A stretch of 64,000 nt of DNA. It comes from Kalmusia sp. IMI 367209. Its lineage: Eukaryota; Ascomycota; Dothideomycetes; Pleosporales; Didymosphaeriaceae. Position 1 is the stretch's first letter. Every line of letters starts with the position of its first letter. The position numbers were made by a program, and so were the translations under genes. The notes under the pieces were generated by a model. The model was not told the DNA's origin, did no database searches, and saw only the letters and a program-made list of their open reading frames with translations. The DNA lies in the NCBI GenBank assembly GCA_027946365.1, contig JAPEUQ010000007.1, forward strand, positions 1,984,001 through 2,048,000, written 5' to 3'. Shown piece after piece: positions 15,531-28,347 of the stretch.

Positions 15531-16211
15531 ATGCTTCTCGCCCGCTAAGAAAGTGGCGTACGTCGATTTATGTCTACGTTCTCGTATCTTAAATCAATAT
15601 CATTACGAATGTATATCCACTGTGTTCTCTATGAGCACGGTGCGATGCATTCACCACGTCTTGTGGGCAATTCAGAACCATCAGTTTGTGTTAATAACCC
15701 ACTATCATTCGGAACTAGTATGTAGAATAACCCGTTGTAATCCACGATGTTTGAGAGCCAGCAGGAGGCGTCAGGAAGCAGACTTCAGTGGAAAGCCATT
15801 AGTCATCGGAGGCATCGGAAGCCGTCGGCCCGAGATCTTGGCGCGAGGCAGCTTTGACTTCTCGAATATTCTCTCGCTCATCTCTCCCACTATTTCAGCT
15901 TCGCCCAGCGTTGCACCCTTATTTCTTTCGCTGTTCTTTTCGAGGAGTATCGTAGATCCCGAGTGTTTATTCTACTGCGTGTTTGGTATGTACCATCCTC
16001 CAATCTACCCTCTGTTTATATGATGAAACCACAGCTGGCACCAGTCCTAGAAGACTTGTACTCTTTTGCTGCGGACAAGCTTTGCGGGAGCAACGCTCCT
16101 AGTCCTGATAATCCTGTTCACGCGTGTCCTCTTAGCCATCTCCTTGCTTGAGCTGACGCTAATCCGACGATTTCAGATTTGCGTTCGAGCTGTGATACTC
16201 CACGCGTCACG
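15531..16211. other. Upstream region of AHA1
   Basis: Pyrimidine-rich sequence just before the AHA1 start is its likely leader. A 177-codon open frame here has no ATG start and unconvincing composition, and is not called. Confidence 0.5.
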
Positions 16212-17322: not shown

Positions 17323-18543
17323 CTCGGACGTGCTACCTTTCTGCCGTGGTGGGAGTCAATGGCGTTTTGGAAACCCTTAGGATGAATGCGACATGAGGAA
17401 ATGAAGTGATGGATTTTAGATACCGAAACTTGGTAGCATAGACAGTCAACGGAAACTGATCCGAGATCAATGTACACCGGCACATTATCGCTTGTTGATG
17501 CTATAGCGTGGCGATATCTTGAAGCAATCCCAAACATGCAACAAGAAACGGATTTAGAGTGGGAATAACATACACGGCATGCGGCCGGGTGCTACAACAG
17601 TGAGGCGTTCAAACACAAAATGCTAATCTCACGCGTGCACTTATTGTATGATTAGCATAGGGGTCACCATGGAGCATGCAAGGTGGGTAGGACAACGATA
17701 AAAGTAGGAGGCGAGTGCATGGTTATAATCGATAAGATCTATATTTAGGGCTGAGTGTGACGCTAAAGTGGCTTGGCGAACGGATCATCTCTCCCGCGCG
17801 AAACGAAACGTCAACACCGCTGTACAGCCCGCTACGCCTCTTTCGTGCTTTCGTTGTAGCCTTACAGCACAGAATCAGGCGCTTCTTACTGTTGCCATCC
17901 ATAATGCGGCATCATTCGGTACCGTCTACTTACTGGTCTCGAAACCGTGTAAAACAGGTACCTCTAACCCGTGCCGCGGGAGTAGCTGTTATTCCGATGC
18001 AATGATGGGGCCAAGGACTATATATACGCAACATAACATTCATGTTCTCGAAACTCGGCGGCTGTGGCCTATTCTACGCCGACCTACATGCTGACCAGCG
18101 CTTACCACCTTTCGCTGTACGGATATAGGCCTCGGAGAGAGGGCTTCCGAAGGCGATGCCACAGCGAGGTTGGTAGAATGAGATCTTGAGCCTCATCTCT
18201 TGGCGCATTATCCCCTGTTGTATACTCGGTACCGCGCTTAGGATGTGCTATGAGTGGAGATTGGACCGGTCAAGCCTCCTTTCCAGAACGCGGCCACGCG
18301 ATTCCCGAAACCCAACAGCCTGTTTTGTTTCGAGGGCTTCCAATCTTGGACCATATTCCAAACTTATTCCTGAGTCAATTCAATAAAGCCATATCAAAGG
18401 TGAATGATCATGCTAAACTAGCGTCTTTCCAGTCCTTTCTGTGTAGCCAAGCCTACTTCGTTTCGTTCCTTTACCAGCAAATAATTGCTTTGGGTTGCTT
18501 TTCTGAACGATTTTTTATTCACTCTTGACACATGATCTAAGGA
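17323..18543. other. Intergenic, nothing recognised
   Basis: Three-prime flank of AHA1 and upstream region of the first DUF3176 gene. Short frames only. Confidence 0.5.
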
Positions 18544-20943
18544 ATGGCTTACGCAAATCCGTCGCAGCAATGGCCTACGTACCCACATATACCGATTTAT
18601 CTCGAAACAAACGACGGCAATAGCACTACAAGATCGTACAGATCCATATCACCGATACCCCCGGAGATCATCCCACAGAAGTCTTCCGTCAAACACCTCG
18701 CAGCTGCCTCCGCCCGCCTCGCTAATATTCCGACGAACATTCCGGTTTCCCCAGCAGCCACACACTTCTCCAACCTTTCTCCAATTTGGCCGATACCAGA
18801 ACCGATTTCCGAAAACATTCCTTGCCAGTCTCATCGCTACGCCCCTCCATTTTCTTCTTTAGACCCACATCTGCAGTATGGAGGAAGAAGCATGCACCAT
18901 TTTCCAGATGTGAGGTCTTCATCGCCTGTCAGGACAGATTTAGGTCCAAACCTTGCAAACGGTGCGAGAGCCGTACAACCATCAATACCCTCACCCATCC
19001 CTGAGAGGGGTGAGCGTTCTTCAAACATTGCTGAAGCCATCGAACAAAAATTGTGGAGATTCAATTCCTCACGTAATGTCATCAAACGGTGGTTGTTAGA
19101 AATTATCAGCTGGTGGATAAGTGCCATCTGCATGGCTGCTATCATTGGAGTCTTGGTATTTTATCGAGACGGTAAGATCCCGAATTGGCCTGGAAAACTG
19201 ACGCTCAACGCGTTCATCTCCATACTATCCAAGATATCCGGTGCGGCGCTCATTCTTCCAGTCTCAGAAGCATTGGGGCAGCTCAAATGGAGTTGGTTCC
19301 AGGGCGATTCTAAGACCATGTGGGATTTTGAGATATTTGACAATGCCTCCCGGGGGCCGTGGGGTTCGATCCTTCTCCTTGTCCGAACCAAAGGAAGGGC
19401 ATTAGCAGCACTAGGGGCCTTGATCACGTTGCTATCCCTTGCTTTAGATCCTTTTTTCCAACAGGTTGTCGATTTCCCAGAACGATGGACACCGCAAGGA
19501 AACAGCTCGATTCCGCTTGTAATCCAATACAACCCACACTATGGTGCTGAACTTCAGTCCGGGCAGGAGATCTCCGTGAACGATCCGGAACTATCCGCTG
19601 TCGCTTCTAAATTCTTCTATGACAATGGAACACAGCCAGTGCCCTTCGGAAACGGGACCCGACCAGACATTCCATTATCATGCCCCACCAGCAAATGCAC
19701 CTGGCCGCGGTATGAAACCTTGGCAATGTGTAGTGAGTGTGTGGAAATGGATGTCGCAAACACATTGACGAGGGGATGCCGCACGATGAGGGTAGACTGG
19801 ACCTCCAACTTGACAGGTGGTCATACTCAGGACACGTACCCCAACGCCACAATGTGTGGATATTTCCTCAACTTCACAAGCGATTCACCAATCTTTATGT
19901 CTGGGTATCTGCTGGAAGGCGCAAATGCTACGAAAGGGGAGGCTTTGCTGATGCGTTCCCTTCCTCTAATAACGAACCCGGATCGTTTACCATTGTATGG
20001 AAACGGTTCCATTCATTTCAAGCACTACCGCAACCCAATCGTCGACGTTATTATCGCAAGCTCACAGGCTGGACGGGATTCAGTTTATGATGGGAAACCA
20101 CCCGTGGTACATGAGTGTGTAGTATCGTGGTGTGTTAAGACTATACAGTCTTTCTATTACGAAGGAATGTACAACGAGAAAATTCTTGATACGTTTATCA
20201 ACACCACCACTGGTCCATTATCATGGACAAGCGAGAAGTTTCAGCAGTTTAACGGTACCGATATGACCTACTCTCAGGACATCATCCTCGATGTGGATGA
20301 TAATACTACTTCGACATTCGGCATGTCCAATGTCACGATGATGAACACTGTCTTTGTTTTTGATGATGTTTTCCCATCATTTAGCACTGTTCAAAACAAG
20401 ACTGCAGATCCATATCTAAGATATAAAGTTTACAGAAAGACAATCGTCACAAGGGCCATACCGTTCAACCCATGGGCGTCGCCAAACAACGTTACGCATC
20501 ATTTCGAACGACTCGCGACAGCATTTACTAATGTTTTTCGATCCTCTTCAATCAACACTACGGTAATTGGAACAGCTTACAATACCGAGAGTTACGTATT
20601 GGTCCGATGGGAGTGGCTCACTCTACCTCTAGGACTTCTGTTTCTCACCTTGTTCTTTCTACTAGCCACGATAAGGAAAACAGCAATCGAAGAGGGCAAC
20701 GTTGGCGTATGGAAAACCTCAGCTATTGCGACGCTTCTTTATGGAGTGCCAGACGATATGCAGCAACAAATTACTAATTCTACAAAGCAAGGAACACCCC
20801 GGTCCAAGGCGAAGAAATTAAAGGTGACATTAAATCCTAGTACAGGATGGAGAGTATCAGGTACTATGTTTTCACCAATGCCAACACCAGGTGCTCCGCA
20901 ACCCATTGCCCCACGAAACCAACCTCCTCCGGGATGGATCTAG
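18544..20943 (+). CDS. DUF3176 family membrane protein (paralogue 1)
   Basis: A single uninterrupted 799-residue frame starting at the ATG at 18544. A Pro/Ser-rich cytosolic N-terminus of about 180 residues is followed by three hydrophobic segments (about 183-205, 217-240, 285-302). The hallmark block between them includes EALGQLKWSWF and a DFEIFDNASRGPWGS stretch, typical of fungal DUF3176. A region of about 380 residues follows with many N-x-S/T sequons and paired cysteines, probably extracytosolic. A last membrane segment (about 688-712) and a short tail ending PPPGWI complete it. The function of DUF3176 is not established. The second copy at 23.5 kb is a clear paralogue, sharing the core, the GVWKTSA motif after the last helix, GWRVSG and the terminal PPPGWI. 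The long N-terminal extension is specific to this copy. Confidence 0.88.
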   Translation: MAYANPSQQWPTYPHIPIYLETNDGNSTTRSYRSISPIPPEIIPQKSSVKHLAAASARLANIPTNIPVSPAATHFSNLSPIWPIPEPISENIPCQSHRYAPPFSSLDPHLQYGGRSMHHFPDVRSSSPVRTDLGPNLANGARAVQPSIPSPIPERGERSSNIAEAIEQKLWRFNSSRNVIKRWLLEIISWWISAICMAAIIGVLVFYRDGKIPNWPGKLTLNAFISILSKISGAALILPVSEALGQLKWSWFQGDSKTMWDFEIFDNASRGPWGSILLLVRTKGRALAALGALITLLSLALDPFFQQVVDFPERWTPQGNSSIPLVIQYNPHYGAELQSGQEISVNDPELSAVASKFFYDNGTQPVPFGNGTRPDIPLSCPTSKCTWPRYETLAMCSECVEMDVANTLTRGCRTMRVDWTSNLTGGHTQDTYPNATMCGYFLNFTSDSPIFMSGYLLEGANATKGEALLMRSLPLITNPDRLPLYGNGSIHFKHYRNPIVDVIIASSQAGRDSVYDGKPPVVHECVVSWCVKTIQSFYYEGMYNEKILDTFINTTTGPLSWTSEKFQQFNGTDMTYSQDIILDVDDNTTSTFGMSNVTMMNTVFVFDDVFPSFSTVQNKTADPYLRYKVYRKTIVTRAIPFNPWASPNNVTHHFERLATAFTNVFRSSSINTTVIGTAYNTESYVLVRWEWLTLPLGLLFLTLFFLLATIRKTAIEEGNVGVWKTSAIATLLYGVPDDMQQQITNSTKQGTPRSKAKKLKVTLNPSTGWRVSGTMFSPMPTPGAPQPIAPRNQPPPGWI

Positions 20944-21046
20944 AGGGAGAAGCGGGTCTCTGCTTCGATGGTAAATTCTCTATCAGGATTTATCATCGAC
21001 AAGTTGGAACCCGTTGCGCTACCCGAAGAGTAGCGCAATACCACGT

Positions 21047-21593
21047 TTATCCCTCTGGCCGAACGATTCCACGACGTTTGTCCTCTGGTCTGACGATGCC
21101 GCGACGATCCTCTGGTCGAACGATGCCGCGACGTTTGTCCTCTGGTCTGACGATGCCGCGACGATCCTCTGGTCGAACGATGCCGCGACGTTTATCTTCT
21201 GGTCGAACGATGCCGCGACGTTTATCCTCTGGTCTGACGATGCCGCGACGATCCTCTGGCCGAACAATACCGCGACGCTTGTGCTGTTCCTCAACTAGAC
21301 CGCGCTCCTCATGTGGGGTCAACAAGACGTCACTGCTAAGCTAGCGCATAATACTTACGCGGTTGATCTGTGCATATTCAGGATCACGCTCGATGAATGT
21401 TCTAGCCTCAAGTGGTGCGAAATCGGGGTCCTCGTTGATAGACCCAAGTACGGCCGCCCTATCAGGAACCTGGGAGTGATAAGTGGGTAGAGATTTACAC
21501 ATGGAACAATCGACATACTTCAACTTTCGACAAAGGTGCAGCAGCGACGACAAGCACAAGCAATACGATCGATAGCAAGGCCTTTGTATACAT
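21047..21593 (-). CDS. Putative secreted kexin-processed repeat-peptide precursor (KEP)
   Basis: Minus strand, three proposed exons: 21593-21519, 21469-21359 and 21307-21047, about 148 residues. Exon 1 encodes a textbook signal peptide (MYTKALLSIVLLVLVVAAA). Intron 1 is 49 bp (GTATGT...CCCAG, phase 0). Exon 2 is an acidic pro-region of 37 residues. Intron 2 is inferred from a perfect GTAAGT donor at 21358, a TTGAC branch-like site and an AG 51 bp away; removing it eliminates the only in-frame TAG. Exon 3 holds eight copies of the heptapeptide GIVRPED (the last is GIVRPEG, directly before TAA) separated by KRR or RR. Signal peptide, pro-region and repeats split by dibasic Kex2 sites is the layout of yeast alpha-factor, fungal KEPs and dikaritin RiPP precursors. 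The repeat lacks aromatic residues and does not resemble known pheromones. Weak point: the second acceptor is GAG rather than YAG. If it is not used, the protein stops before the repeats. Confidence 0.6.
21051..21295. repeat. Minisatellite of alternating 30- and 27-bp units
   Basis: Eight tandem units starting TCTGG, in the order 30, 27, 30, 27, 30, 30, 27, 30 bases, differing by a 3-base indel and a few substitutions. All unit lengths are multiples of three, so frames stay open through the array. On the minus strand each unit encodes GIVRPED plus KRR (30 bp) or RR (27 bp). The conservation of length modulo three supports a coding role. Confidence 0.9.
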
Positions 21594-23482
21594 ATTGGGA
21601 AGAATTTCAAAGCTCCAATTCGGATCGAAAAGTTGAAGAGGAAGAGAAAATGACCTTGTTCAGGCACTGTCCACGAAGATCATCTGGAATTTATACAGAA
21701 CGCGTCGATCTCCCGCAGAAAAAGCAGGCAAATTGCGCATGAAATTCCCAGACGAACGCGACCTCTATCACTTGAGCACGACGGGAGTGGGGGGACCTTG
21801 TGCGATGTGTCGAAACGCGGTCGGTCTCCACCTCATCTCCACCAGCACATACCAGCTCGATGAGCTCGCTGCCTGATAAGATTCGAACAGCTTACCTTAC
21901 AACCGGAAGCATATTCACACTGCCATTGGACGGAGATGAGATACAGCATAAGTGATGCAATGGATTGGGTTAAATGAAACTCGGACACCTGCGACGATGG
22001 AACGTATAGCGTTAGATCGGGTTTTGTGGAGGGCTGCACCCACATCAGAATGGACCATCGATCTTTTTCGCAATGCTCACGAGTTCAGGCGCTTTAAGTT
22101 GACCAGCCTTTCGCTGGAAATTCATTAGAATCAATAGAATGGCTTTTAGACATCCTCATTCTGTAACCCGTATCGAATTGCATCAGATTGAGAATTAATG
22201 CCAACCAATCGCAGGCTTAGCATGCATGTGATAATCCTTGGCGGCGGCTATCGTTGCGGCCACGCACCAAGAGTGATTGGCTATGCCTGTGTCTCACTTT
22301 ACGTGCAATCCGTATTGGGCGACTTGTAAAACTCCAACATGCCTCCGTTGCGCACCTGCTTTATCCATGAGCATTACGCTTGTACCTTCCACGCTGATGG
22401 AGGATGTCGAAAAATCGGGGTCTTCTCGCAGTTGAGTCGTGTAGCACTTTATTTTCGAGCGAACCCAACCTGGCGAGAAGTGATCCATTGGAGTTCAATG
22501 AGATCACTATGCCGTGCGTCAAACTTGACGGTGCTGCTCCAGCTTAAAGGGACACTTGATTGTGGCTGATACCTGCAGCCATGAGCGATGTTTGCATGCG
22601 AGCACCAAGTTTTGAGAAGCATTTGTATGGAGTCGCGTGCGGTGGTAACGAGACTAACTGCAGAGATGGCCTCTAAAGTCAGGAAAAAGGCCAAGGAGCT
22701 ACATGACAAGCCTGTACCCATGCTTACTAGAGAAACTACCCATAACGTCTAATAGCGCTTTTTGCGTCTACTACAGTATTTGACTCACAGCTAACTGGGA
22801 TAAGTAAGCCGACCCATCTCCGAAGAATCTCCGATAATGCGAAAGGTACGGCCTTGATCTCGCGCACCTACTCTAGTCTCTGAGAACTCACCGCGATACT
22901 AATCGCAAAACCTATCGCGATTTGATATTGCAATGCTTTATCCGCACATTGTGCGAATTATGTCCTTTAGTAAGGCAGCCTCCCGAAGCCTCAACAACAA
23001 CCTGTTACCATTTTTATCGATTGATGGGCTGTGCTGTAACACCGGGCGCTAACTTGCAGTTGCCCCTGCATAGAAGCAGCCTGACTTCTTTTACGAAGTG
23101 CACTCTCAGTTATGGCGACGCTTATTACTCGCTGTTCAGCCGCTGATCTCCTTGCATATTACGAATTTATCATAAAGTTGAAACATGAGGCTGACATGAT
23201 CGAATCGAGCCATGTTCCTCAAAAGAGATGCAAATACTGTCGCATTACTTCATTCCTACTCCTTTACTTCCTCTATCTCGCTTTATGGTTCTTATATGCT
23301 CTCTAGTGTCTTACAATCTTCTCTATCATACAACTACGAACCGAGTCCTGACGATTAATGAATACAATTTAAAGTTGCCTTTTTCGATTACATGTGGCAA
23401 TAAACATTCTTTGAATTGACTATTGAGCCTTAACGAGATGGGATATGTGATCCGGATACACTAATCGAGTCCTACTAAAGAG
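21594..23482. other. Intergenic between the KEP-like gene and second DUF3176 gene
   Basis: Short frames only, no recognised product. It contains the promoters of the divergently oriented KEP-like gene (left) and the DUF3176 paralogue (right). Confidence 0.5.
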
Positions 23483-25417
23483 ATGATCTTTTCTATGTCG
23501 ACAGACCGAAAACCCAAGTTGGATTTACCGCAAAGAATCGAGAGAAGCATTGCACGCTTGAACACCTCCGAGAACCCTTTACGACGCTGGTCAATCGAAC
23601 TTATAAGCTGGACAACTAGTGCTCTATGTATGGGTTCCATCATAGGCATTCTTCTCCACATAGAAAATCAACGACTATCGCAGTGGCCGCTCGGCTTGAC
23701 AATTATAACGATTCTAGCCAAAATCGCAGCAGCTACGCTAATCATCCCCACCTCAGAGGCTATTGGACAACTGAAATGGAATTGGTATAATGGAAGCAAG
23801 TCGAAAGAGATGGTTGATTTCGAAATTTTTGACAAAGCCTCCCGTGGAGGTCCGTGGGGTTCTGTTATGTTGATACTGCGTACCAAAGGCAAATCGTTGG
23901 CGGCTTTAGGGGCAGTGCTTACCATTCTGATGCTTGCTATCGATACCTTCTTCCAGCAGGTCATAGAGCTGCCGGATCGTTGGGTTCTACAAGCAAAGGC
24001 ACTCGTTCCTGTGGTGTCTCAGTACGAACCCAAAGATCCACACACCTATAGCGACGGTATGAAAGAGTTGCAGAACGATCGAAAATTGCTGGAAGTTGTT
24101 GAAAAGTTCTTCATTGATAACGGCACACAACCTATTCCAGCAGGAAACGGAACTCAGGCTGAAATTCATGTGTTGTGTCCTACCGGAAATTGTGAATGGC
24201 CTACTTATCACACGCTTGGCATCTGTAGTGCCTGTGAAGATGTCTCTTCACTGTTGAAATTCACTTGCATCTCATCGAGGATGGACTGGATACGCAACCT
24301 TACCAGAGACGAAACCAAATCCTCCTACCCCAATGGAACCATGTGCGGATATTTCATCAACACGACAAGCAACGATGCTATCATGATGACCGGCTACGCT
24401 ATGGGCTCTAACGTTACATATGCGGGACAGGCACTCGTGGCTCGTAGCCTCCCACTTGTCGATACCGTTTTCAGAACCACATTGTTCGATGGATCAATCC
24501 ATTTCGGCCATGTGCGTAACCCAATAGTCGATTTCATAGTGGCTGGAGTCCAGGACATCGAAAGCGCTTATGCCAATCAGACACCTGTCGCCCATGAATG
24601 CATGCTCTCATGGTGCATCAAAGCAATAAAATCCACATACCATCTTGGCGCTTACAATGAGGAAGTTGTCGACACTTTCTTCAATTCCACACCAGGCGTG
24701 CAACCGTGGCTATCTAACACATTCAATTACTCCGGTTCGATACAACACGATCATTATTACTTAGAAGACATCGTCATCCGGGCGCCTTGGAACCCGAAGA
24801 ACACCTACGGCCTAATGAATTCGACGATGCTCAAAATAGCCGCCACTTTTGACGATTTCTTACCATTCTTCTCCACAATGGTCAATACTTCGTCCTCAGC
24901 CCTGACACGGTCACGGTACTGGAAAACATCCCGAAGCACAGAATATTTAATGTCGTTCAACCCTTGGCTGCCCCCAAACAATATTACGCGACACCTCGAA
25001 CGAATCGCCATTATGATGACGAATCACGTTCGGTTTACGAGTAACGAGACTGCGCCGGGCGACGCTTGGGCGAAAGAAGTTTTCGTGAGCGTACAGTGGG
25101 CATGGCTTACCTTCCCAGTCGTACTACTGTTTACTAGTTTATTATTTCTTATCACGACCATTGTTCGGACTTCTAAAGACAAGAGCAAGGTTGGGATTTG
25201 GAAAACCTCAGCCATGCCGGCGCTGATCTACAGCCTACCCAAAGATGTGCAGGACTCACTGGCCTCAGGAGGCGCCACATGGACCGCCATAGGCCGAGAC
25301 AACGCGAAAAAGACACGAATCAGGCTGTTACCGAATAAGGGTTGGCGGGTATCGGGCTATAACTCTGCGCCTACGACACCGGTCTCGACACGGCACCCCC
25401 CACCAGGCTGGATATGA
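23483..25417 (+). CDS. DUF3176 family membrane protein (paralogue 2)
   Basis: A single open frame of 644 residues from the ATG at 23483. It aligns by eye with the upstream paralogue without the long Pro/Ser-rich N-terminus. Hydrophobic segments lie at about 36-58, 70-93 and 140-158, with a final one at about 538-560. The DUF3176 hallmarks are present: EAIGQLKWNWY, DFEIFDKASRGGPWGS, and a glycosylation-rich loop with conserved NGTQPIPAGNGTQ-type and CPTGNCEWP-type motifs. GIWKTSA, GWRVSG and a terminal PPPGWI match paralogue 1. The likely topology is a short cytosolic N-terminus, membrane anchors, a large non-cytosolic loop and a cytosolic tail. The biological role of the family is unknown. 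The pair probably arose by local duplication, with the KEP-like gene caught between. Confidence 0.88.
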   Translation: MIFSMSTDRKPKLDLPQRIERSIARLNTSENPLRRWSIELISWTTSALCMGSIIGILLHIENQRLSQWPLGLTIITILAKIAAATLIIPTSEAIGQLKWNWYNGSKSKEMVDFEIFDKASRGGPWGSVMLILRTKGKSLAALGAVLTILMLAIDTFFQQVIELPDRWVLQAKALVPVVSQYEPKDPHTYSDGMKELQNDRKLLEVVEKFFIDNGTQPIPAGNGTQAEIHVLCPTGNCEWPTYHTLGICSACEDVSSLLKFTCISSRMDWIRNLTRDETKSSYPNGTMCGYFINTTSNDAIMMTGYAMGSNVTYAGQALVARSLPLVDTVFRTTLFDGSIHFGHVRNPIVDFIVAGVQDIESAYANQTPVAHECMLSWCIKAIKSTYHLGAYNEEVVDTFFNSTPGVQPWLSNTFNYSGSIQHDHYYLEDIVIRAPWNPKNTYGLMNSTMLKIAATFDDFLPFFSTMVNTSSSALTRSRYWKTSRSTEYLMSFNPWLPPNNITRHLERIAIMMTNHVRFTSNETAPGDAWAKEVFVSVQWAWLTFPVVLLFTSLLFLITTIVRTSKDKSKVGIWKTSAMPALIYSLPKDVQDSLASGGATWTAIGRDNAKKTRIRLLPNKGWRVSGYNSAPTTPVSTRHPPPGWI

Positions 25418-26026: not shown

Positions 26027-28347
26027 TTACTCAGTTGGCGCAGGTACGTATACCGTGACTGGCACAACGACCGTAACAATCTTCGTCACCCTCTGGCCAT
26101 CCGGCATCGTCACAACCTCCACTGCCTCACCGGGACCAGGCGTCACGCTACTAGCCGCGCTTCCCAATGTTTTGCTCTCGACTACGCGTAGGCTCACAGA
26201 GCTAGAAAGCGATGGCTGCGCAACTCCCGCGCCAACCGCACTATCCGTATTGTTCCAGTGCCACGATCCGCTCGTGGCGTTCCAGCCACCAGCGGCCCCG
26301 GCAAGGCTCGGTCCTGACCCGGTCGTATTCGGCGGGTTGCCGTGGATCTCGGGCTTGTAGTCGAATGAGCCGGTCCACTTGGGGACGTCTGTGTCGTTTT
26401 TGGGGATGTGGATGGGAACGTTGAAGACGGTTACGTTGAGGCCTTTGGGCGGGGACGAGCGCGGAATCTCGCTGTAGTCGAGGGCCTGGATGCGCCAATG
26501 AAAGTGTTTCTCGAGGTAGGCCGAGACGTCTTCGTCTTTCAAGCTTGGGAGCTCGCCGGCTTGAAACTTTTCGAAGAGTTTGGAGGTGAGGCAGATGTTG
26601 GCTGTGAAAGTTATGTTGGAGCGCATGCGGGGCGATGAGGTAGATGCCACCTGTGAAAGGGAGGTTTGATCAGCTTGGATTATGAAGGAGGGAATGTAGA
26701 GTTCTGGCTTACCTGGCCGATGTAGTTCGGGTCTATCGCCCACTTGGTAGGATCGGCGTTAGGCTCACCCAAGAAAGCCCGCACGGAATACGAGACCTGA
26801 ATATCGGCAGGCATTGTGACTGCAGCGTTCCAATCAGTCGCTTTCACGCTACTGTTGGTCGCACCAGAATAATTATCGGTAGAATTGCTATCTAGACCTT
26901 GAATCTGAGGCTTGTAGAGTTTGTTGATGGTGTTAGTGAGTGTAGTATTGGAGGGATTGGAAATCAGCTCAGGATAGGTGTAGCCGAAAGAAGTCCAGTT
27001 GCGAACAAGAGCTGAGGTCCACAAGTCGCCGTTGGCATTCATATGGAATGGTTCAAGTGGGGAGCTAGCGTTTTGGACACTGTTCGCAGCAAACGTATAT
27101 GTTCCCTTGGGCTGTGAGGCCGGCTCAACCCAGGTATCGGGATAGCGGTATTGATAGATTGCCATAATGCGGTCCATTTGACTGTGGATATCAGCTACAG
27201 CTCTGTGAAAGTTATTCCAATGGGTACTGAAATATTTACTTCGATGGTTTGAAACGTACCAGTGATGCAACCAAAATACCGGGTCAAACGCTGATGCTTC
27301 CACGATACCCATGTTCCCCAAGCCAAACATATTATGAAAGCTATTGTGTAGTGATTCTACATTGCCAATATTACCACCGTCGGCAGTGGTACTCCACTGA
27401 TTGAATGGTTGATATGTGGTCAAGAGCTTATAGAGCGTATCGCGGTTGTTCGGTTGTGCAGTGGTAGCACGCTCATTGGCGACATCATTGCGACTGGTAG
27501 CTTCAATCGAAGTTCCGTCTTCCGGTAAACGAATCGTTGTATTCCAGTACTTGAATTCGTATTCAGCCTATCAAGCGATCAATAATTGTATCATAGTATA
27601 TTCCAATGAAGAAGGGTTGACTCACAAGCGCAGAGAAATCGTCATACTTCAAAGGGTGGAAGCTGTACTGGTAGAGTGGGTTCGGAATTTCTCCCAAAGT
27701 CCCATTTGGAAAGGTGACGATAGTCGTTTGGCGGCTGAGACTCGTGGGCATCACACCCTCGCTGCTATTTCTGGGGTCGAGGGCCCAGTCCCAGTATGGT
27801 AGCCGAATCCGATCAGCCACAAAGAGAGCGTTGTCTTGAGCGTCGCCCACTGGATACTCGTTTGCGATTTCGACAGCCTTTCTCTGAAGGACCTGCTCAA
27901 ATAAAGCAAGGTATGGACGATGCCATGTCAGAAAGACATTGCTCACGTGCGGACAGTAGCCCACGGACCCGTTGCCTTTCACTCCGTCCCATTCTCTAAA
28001 TGGAGCTCCATGTATGGCTTCTCATATTAGCATAGAGTAGCTAGTGATAATTGAGGACCTTTACCCGCGACCTGGAAGTATGACACCTTGTCGCTTTGAT
28101 CCATAGCTTGAAATCGAGCAAATGCTTGCAAGAAAAGGTTCCACGTTTCCGCATCCTTTTCAAGCTCGCGCAGCTCTTGCCGTGGGTGTACTCCTGTCCC
28201 TTGGACCCCAACAACGGAGAAGTAGGTCGATTCATCGGTCTTTTGTATAGCAGCGCAGCTTTCGCCGTTGCTGAGAGGAGCAGCTTGTGTGCTGGTAAAC
28301 AAAATGAGTGAGGTAAATCCAGTAATGGTAGAAAAGAAAGACTTCAT
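26027..28347 (-). CDS. Secreted tyrosinase (type 3 copper oxidase)
   Basis: Five minus-strand exons (28347-28065, 28017-27626, 27567-27260, 27181-26713, 26650-26027) with introns of 47-78 bp give 691 residues with consistent phases. Residues 1-22 are a signal peptide (MKSFFSTITGF...). CuA ligands are His97 (IHGAPF), His118 and His127 (YCPHVSNVFLTWHRPY); Cys116-x-His118 fits the thioether bridge of this family. CuB ligands are His299 and His303 (SLHNSFHN) plus FWLHHCQMDR (His326/327); this last motif is created only by splicing across 27259-27182, which confirms the intron. A tyrosinase C-terminal domain follows (about 490-570, WRIQALDYSEIP), then a Gly/Ser-rich, glycosylatable tail. The enzyme oxidises mono- and diphenols to o-quinones, used in melanin formation and in some peptide natural-product pathways. 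It sits 5 kb from the KEP-like gene, with unknown relevance. Confidence 0.92.

Follow-up and report, generated by a model that had tools for sequence, protein, structure and literature searches.

A run of eight heptapeptide units separated by dibasic sites lies on the minus strand of the window (the whole 64,000-nucleotide stretch of the Kalmusia sp. IMI 367209 genome analysed here), and raised the question of whether the locus encodes a secreted repeat-peptide precursor and, if so, of which kind. It is highly likely that this gene encodes a Kex2-processed repeat protein (KEP) that is linear and UstYa-independent, and that would secrete about seven GIVRPED peptides and one GIVRPEG in unmodified or minimally modified form. 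The source organism, cf. Kalmusia sp. IMI 367209, is described in PMC10027605 as a culture-collection endophyte that was sequenced with short and long reads to give 30 contigs (42.78 Mb), with an ambiguous placement at genus level in the Didymosphaeriaceae. The genome searched in this work comprised 42,784,582 bases in 30 contigs.

Gene model on the minus strand

The following features were assigned to the gene:

21690-21695, minus strand: TATAAA, approximately 97 nt upstream of the ATG (consensus match by eye)
21519-21593, minus strand: exon 1, start codon and hydrophobic signal-type N-terminus MYTKALLSIVLLVLVVAAAPLSKVE (splice joins, hydropathy, NCBI protein start)
21470-21518, minus strand: intron 1, 49 nt, GTATGT...CAG (splice joins; the NCBI protein implies the same)
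21359-21469, minus strand: exon 2, mildly acidic pro-region VPDRAAVLGSINEDPDFAPLEARTFIERDPEYAQINR (open frames, splice joins, NCBI protein)
21284-21358, minus strand: intron 2, donor GTAAGT at 21358, candidate acceptors TGAG or ACAG
21047-21283, minus strand: minimal exon 3, HKRR, eight repeat units and a stop at 21049-21047

The precursor starts at the ATG at 21593. Mean hydropathy in 11-residue windows peaked at 3.41 in residues 7-17, and no window past residue 25 exceeded 0.87. Judged by hydropathy, the signal-peptide exon proposed in the preliminary description has a signal-type start. The pro-region, which had been called acidic, was only mildly so (9 D/E versus 5 K/R in 43 residues). Two introns had also been proposed; the first was recovered with GTATGT...CAG boundaries and the second with a GTAAGT donor, but the acceptor of the second was ambiguous. 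The frame that carries the repeats (21340-21047) has no in-frame ATG of its own, so the repeats require the splicing of intron 2. A further minus strand frame, 21294-21019, overlaps the array, is open beyond its stop and contains a KR pair within 21019-21050.

The gene is annotated at NCBI as the hypothetical protein N0V90_007628 of Kalmusia sp. IMI 367209, on the minus strand and with the same ATG at 21593. Comparison of this protein with the open frames showed that the annotated model implies an intron 2 of 18 nt (21358-21341). A length of 18 nt is considered to be below real intron size.

The likelier in-frame acceptors for intron 2 were TGAG ending at 21308 (51 nt) and ACAG ending at 21284 (75 nt); further in-frame AGs were found at 54, 69 and 81 nt, in addition to some within the array. 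A better-formed acceptor, CTAG, was present at 64 nt, and the open frame that results from its use contains no GIVRPED units. The sole branch-like motif in intron 2 was TTGAC at +36, and motif inspection of the intron revealed no clean in-frame acceptor near it. On spacing, this motif would suit the 51-nt or the 64-nt acceptor better than the 75-nt one. A motif-based, rather than transcript-based, tally of intron-like matches in the window and 16 other loci of the genome gave 12 CAG/TAG acceptors, one AAG and no GAG among 13 strict matches; GAG accounted for 4 of 33 loose matches, a set that may contain the precursor's own intron 2. By this tally a TGAG acceptor at 51 nt would be atypical. The GIVRPED frame was favoured despite the ambiguity of the acceptor because of the substitution pattern among the units.

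The repeat array

The eight heptads were located as follows:

21050-21271, minus strand: repeat array of eight heptads
21271-21251, 21244-21224, 21214-21194 and 21184-21164, minus strand: GIVRPED, units 1-4
21157-21137, 21127-21107 and 21100-21080, minus strand: GIVRPED, units 5-7
21070-21050, minus strand: GIVRPEG, unit 8, which runs into the stop

Of the eight GIVRPED copies reported in the preliminary description, seven have this sequence and the eighth is GIVRPEG. The KRR or RR separators it had described precede all eight units, and the stop that it had placed directly after the last repeat was found at 21049-21047, where GIVRPEG meets it. KRR lies ahead of unit 1, and the separators between the units are, in order, RR, KRR, KRR, RR, KRR, RR and KRR. 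This variation is by a whole codon (RR or KRR), such that the dibasic site is kept every time. Units 4-5 and 6-7, including their separators, were identical at 56 of 57 positions, which points to a recent duplication of a 57-nt dimer and suggests that the array is unstable. Tandem Repeats Finder (TRF) detected the array as five overlapping entries scoring 257-318. A single 5-mer followed [KR]R eight times in one open frame, a count that exceeded one in none of 50 Markov resamples of the window.

Substitutions among the units

Comparison of units 1-7 with their RR codons showed that all 55 pairwise codon differences were synonymous in the GIVRPED frame. In each of the five other frames between 18 and 46 differences were non-synonymous: 18 of 36 in the best of them (plus strand, SSGRTM), 36 of 36 in three and 46 of 55 in one. 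When unit 8 was included, the GIVRPED frame contained 80 synonymous and seven non-synonymous differences. Counting each distinct substitution once gave 7/7 synonymous for units 1-7 and 9/11 for all eight units, with the two non-synonymous substitutions both in the last codon of unit 8. Among the possible single changes 23 of 81 (28%) are synonymous. The probability of 9/11 was about 4e-4, or 6e-4 with transition bias, figures that rest on small counts and take the substitutions as independent. A recently grown tandem array need not keep its peptide; the GIVRPED array has done so, and this synonymous-only pattern is more telling than the comparison of repeat count with chance.

Predicted processing and product

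The preliminary description had proposed a precursor of the kexin-processed repeat type, a reading that gained support from the synonymous-only variation of units 1-7 in the frame it had given and from the presence of a Kex2 gene. The genome contains one Kex2-like gene, an 865-aa frame with Peptidase_S8 and P_proprotein domains (P domain at C11:432549-432809). We infer the splicing, processing, secretion and target of the precursor alike, and the processing route, which is established for the KEP class, would carry over to GIVRPED by analogy. The N-terminal signal would take the precursor into the endoplasmic reticulum, Kex2 would cleave after each RR or KRR in the Golgi and a putative Kex1-type carboxypeptidase would trim the basic residues. 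Each precursor would then yield the seven or so GIVRPED peptides and the one GIVRPEG for secretion with little or no modification. By analogy, the peptide would most likely act outside the cell, either on organisms that share the niche of the endophyte or on members of its own kind.

Searches for relatives and paralogues

When 5.77 billion proteins were searched with the full-length precursor (E up to 1), the 7995 candidates with the most words in common were scored and the record of the gene itself was the only one returned; the same held for residues 1-76 (E up to 10; 26 candidates). Both searches depend on 5-residue words in common and on the relative having an annotated or predicted protein, and would miss diverged or unannotated relatives. 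As a control, the 146-residue frame of a UstYa-linked KEP from the same genome (locus L015) was searched, which matched eight proteins with E values from 1.8e-36 to 6.4e-5. Three of the eight matches had a named organism: Paraphaeosphaeria minitans, Byssothecium circinans and Lophium mytilinum. P. minitans belongs to the same family as Kalmusia. Because the L015 control reached matches, the lack of relatives for the GIVRPED precursor carries meaning, and with no relative in the protein database there is no cross-species conservation to be claimed for the precursor. It is most likely a lineage-specific linear secreted peptide, the function of which we infer.

A Pfam scan of the precursor protein identified no families, and a PDB scan gave one match at chance level (E 0.56). 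The existence of a paralogue family was considered and rejected, as a genome search with the precursor (E up to 10) recovered, apart from its own locus, a single weak match (E 0.453, 24%) that lay within the L015 UstYa-linked KEP, the cores of which are unrelated. This second repeat-peptide precursor (L015:4282-5173, plus strand, on G000:C27) has the cores TEFAPWYRATNILPASDD between K/R runs, and a UstYa gene (L015:2701-3396, minus strand) is located approximately 0.9 kb away. The repeats of this precursor are spread over two overlapping open frames, and its gene structure is provisional.

Genes surrounding the locus

The GIVRPED gene and a DUF3176 gene (frame 18541-20943, plus strand) converge, with 103 bp between them, and a second DUF3176 gene (frame 23465-25417, plus strand) lies on the other side of the GIVRPED gene. 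DUF3176 is a family of unknown function according to Pfam and was rarely mentioned in the literature searched. A tyrosinase gene on the minus strand (matches in 26680-27567 and 27563-28021) is approximately 5 kb away, beyond one of the DUF3176 genes. The nearest UstYa match on the contig, at 1915195-1915476, is 89,571 bases from the GIVRPED gene. The tyrosinase is probably a bystander, because UstYa partners sit close and, in the sections of PMC7329392 consulted, tyrosinases do not accumulate beside KEPs without UstYa.

Across the genome there were 102 exon-level matches to UstYa, which makes for many potential RiPP loci in a single endophyte. The sole Rfam match in the window was the C/D-box snoRNA Afu_190 (RF01498, 61.3 bits) at 16018-16109, just upstream of an Aha1 gene.

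Alternative explanations

It is improbable that the array is a minisatellite or a decayed gene without a working product, be it a pseudogene or a gene with an intron 2 junction that leaves the repeats out of frame. The awkward intron 2 acceptor, the departure of the last unit from the pattern at the point where the frame stops, the apparently recent dimer duplication in an unstable array and the protein searches that found no relatives are all in line with decay; against this, units 1-7 are all-synonymous in the GIVRPED frame alone, and the exons at the N-terminus are free of stops and begin with a signal-type stretch. Scarcely credible is a product read from the plus strand, in which frame 20841-21344 would supply [L]SSG[R/L]TMP-type units between RR pairs. 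This frame does contain nine RR pairs with seven short units between them, for example SSGRTMP and LSSGLTMP, and its distinct substitutions (5/9 synonymous for all units, 4/6 for units 1-7) are the best after the GIVRPED frame. The RR-separated repeats arise on the plus strand because the RR codons of the array read RR on both strands. Against a plus strand product, the units vary in sequence and length, and 18 of the 36 codon differences among units 1-7 are non-synonymous. Moreover, the frame opens within the terminal part of the DUF3176 gene, which is read in a different frame, its highest 11-residue hydropathy is 0.84 compared to 3.41 at the minus strand start, and the public annotation sits on the minus strand. 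The plus strand array was set aside as coding sequence, given that half of its repeat differences are non-synonymous and that it has no signal-type stretch; it was kept as a minor rival, and its RR-separated repeats slightly lower confidence in the GIVRPED reading.

The layout of the GIVRPED precursor is also that of an alpha-factor precursor, and a STE2 receptor gene is present (G000:C1:3183042-3183928, the best match lying in a 441-aa open frame with no stops), so that a strongly diverged alpha-type mating pheromone precursor of Kalmusia sp. has to be considered. In addition, genome pattern searches, which are a weak test for a true pheromone, revealed neither Dothideomycete pheromone type as a repeat. 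PYG[L/M]P[I/V]G had no exact matches in the genome, and with one mismatch there were 19 single matches compared to 29 for the reversed control. Inspection of 14 of these 19 loci showed the motif in 13 and a repeated unit in none; one of them (L034) has RR ahead of a single, unrepeated copy. The pattern W-C-x3-G-[QE]-x-C gave 11 matches compared to nine for its control. According to PMC6339444, alpha pheromones have cores of 9-24 residues with a conserved PYG[L/M]P[I/V]G (Pleosporales) or two Cys. GIVRPED, in contrast, falls below this range at seven residues and lacks an aromatic residue, Cys and PYGxPxG; nor is there a STE13 dipeptide (XA or XP) after the kexin site, because the units start with GI straight after RR. 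An alpha-type pheromone is thus distinctly improbable. A reading that is unlikely, while keeping a small chance, is that GIVRPED is a recently arisen peptide signal confined to this lineage, which either serves the STE2-type receptor of the fungus itself as ligand, in place of a PYGxPxG pheromone, or is a linear peptide that the host plant perceives during endophytic growth. A dikaritin (ustiloxin/phomopsin-type) or other cyclised RiPP precursor is very improbable and was rejected, with UstYa and Tyr both missing. The shared precursor layout, the tyrosinase gene approximately 5 kb away and the many UstYa genes in the genome would suit such a product. Against it, the core has no Tyr or other aromatic residue, whereas Tyr occurs in 65.6% of the repeats of UstYa-linked KEPs in PMC7329392, and the nearest UstYa match is approximately 89 kb away, whereas the known partners are on average 3.09 genes away in the same survey; the L015 locus provides the contrast of a UstYa-linked KEP in this genome. 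The lack of Tyr in the core and the distance to UstYa agree with the earlier view that a Tyr-crosslinked dikaritin is unlikely, and a linear KEP is the reading that we retain.

Comparison with known repeat precursors

PMC6339444 defines KEPs by at least three similar motifs freed by KR/RR cuts, a repeated motif that covers no less than 15% of the protein, a signal peptide by SignalP with no membrane domain by TMHMM, and a host that encodes Kex2. The GIVRPED precursor has eight units, each after RR, and its repeats make up 8 x 7 = 56 of 148 residues (38%). Hydropathy alone placed a stretch reaching 3.41 at the N-terminus and none above 0.87 after residue 25, and the host has its one Peptidase_S8 and P_proprotein gene. 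The survey in PMC7329392 (Umemura 2020) requires at least three repeats of at least eight residues between kexin sites, so a core of seven residues is left out if strictly counted; the third basic residue of KRR is a case that the consulted part of the survey leaves unaddressed. In that survey 2560 of 7878 KEPs had no homologs, 6120 of 7878 had no DUF3328/UstYa neighbour, and ascomycete strains averaged 5.25 KEPs each.

Linear KEP-derived peptides were detected by mass spectrometry in several mushrooms (PMC9769878). Six kep gene knockouts in the same study gave no phenotype in axenic culture, and its authors suggested a role towards the biotic environment. Coprinopsis KEPs were also expressed in the yeast Pichia pastoris in that work. 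A literature search found no occurrence of the string GIVRPED in the texts covered. The KEP kind is already known and common; the GIVRPED peptide is new to the sources searched. If real, it adds one more peptide and one more precursor without detectable relatives, and leaves knowledge of the class unchanged. It is also a clean case that lends itself to testing, in which the repeat units of a simple linear peptide vary almost only synonymously, in a sequenced culture-collection endophyte.

The precursor resembles the linear KEPs of Le Marquer et al. 2019 (PMC6339444) in its signal-type N-terminus and in having at least three near-identical, KR/RR-separated repeats in a compact region. It had been noted from the outset that the unit matched no known pheromone or KEP, and none was found among the published motifs checked: GIVRPED differs from DADAATXYV[A/V]D, YVW[G/A][G/S], SPPHKT, QKLKVD, EDYXI and XSDW, the conserved motifs given in the main text of PMC6339444. 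At seven residues the core is also outside the 9-24 residue class that, according to the same paper, is the most abundant in most Dikarya. The dikaritin precursors of the UstA/PhomA type share kexin-separated repeats after a signal peptide, whereas the GIVRPED precursor has no core Tyr for an ether cross-link and no UstYa gene nearby. Ascomycete alpha-type pheromone precursors are likewise secreted with tandem cores between dibasic sites, but GIVRPED is shorter and lacks STE13 dipeptides, PYGxPxG, a Cys pair and an aromatic residue. With the stand-alone KEPs of PMC7329392 it has in common that it is an orphan ascomycete repeat precursor with no DUF3328/UstYa neighbour.
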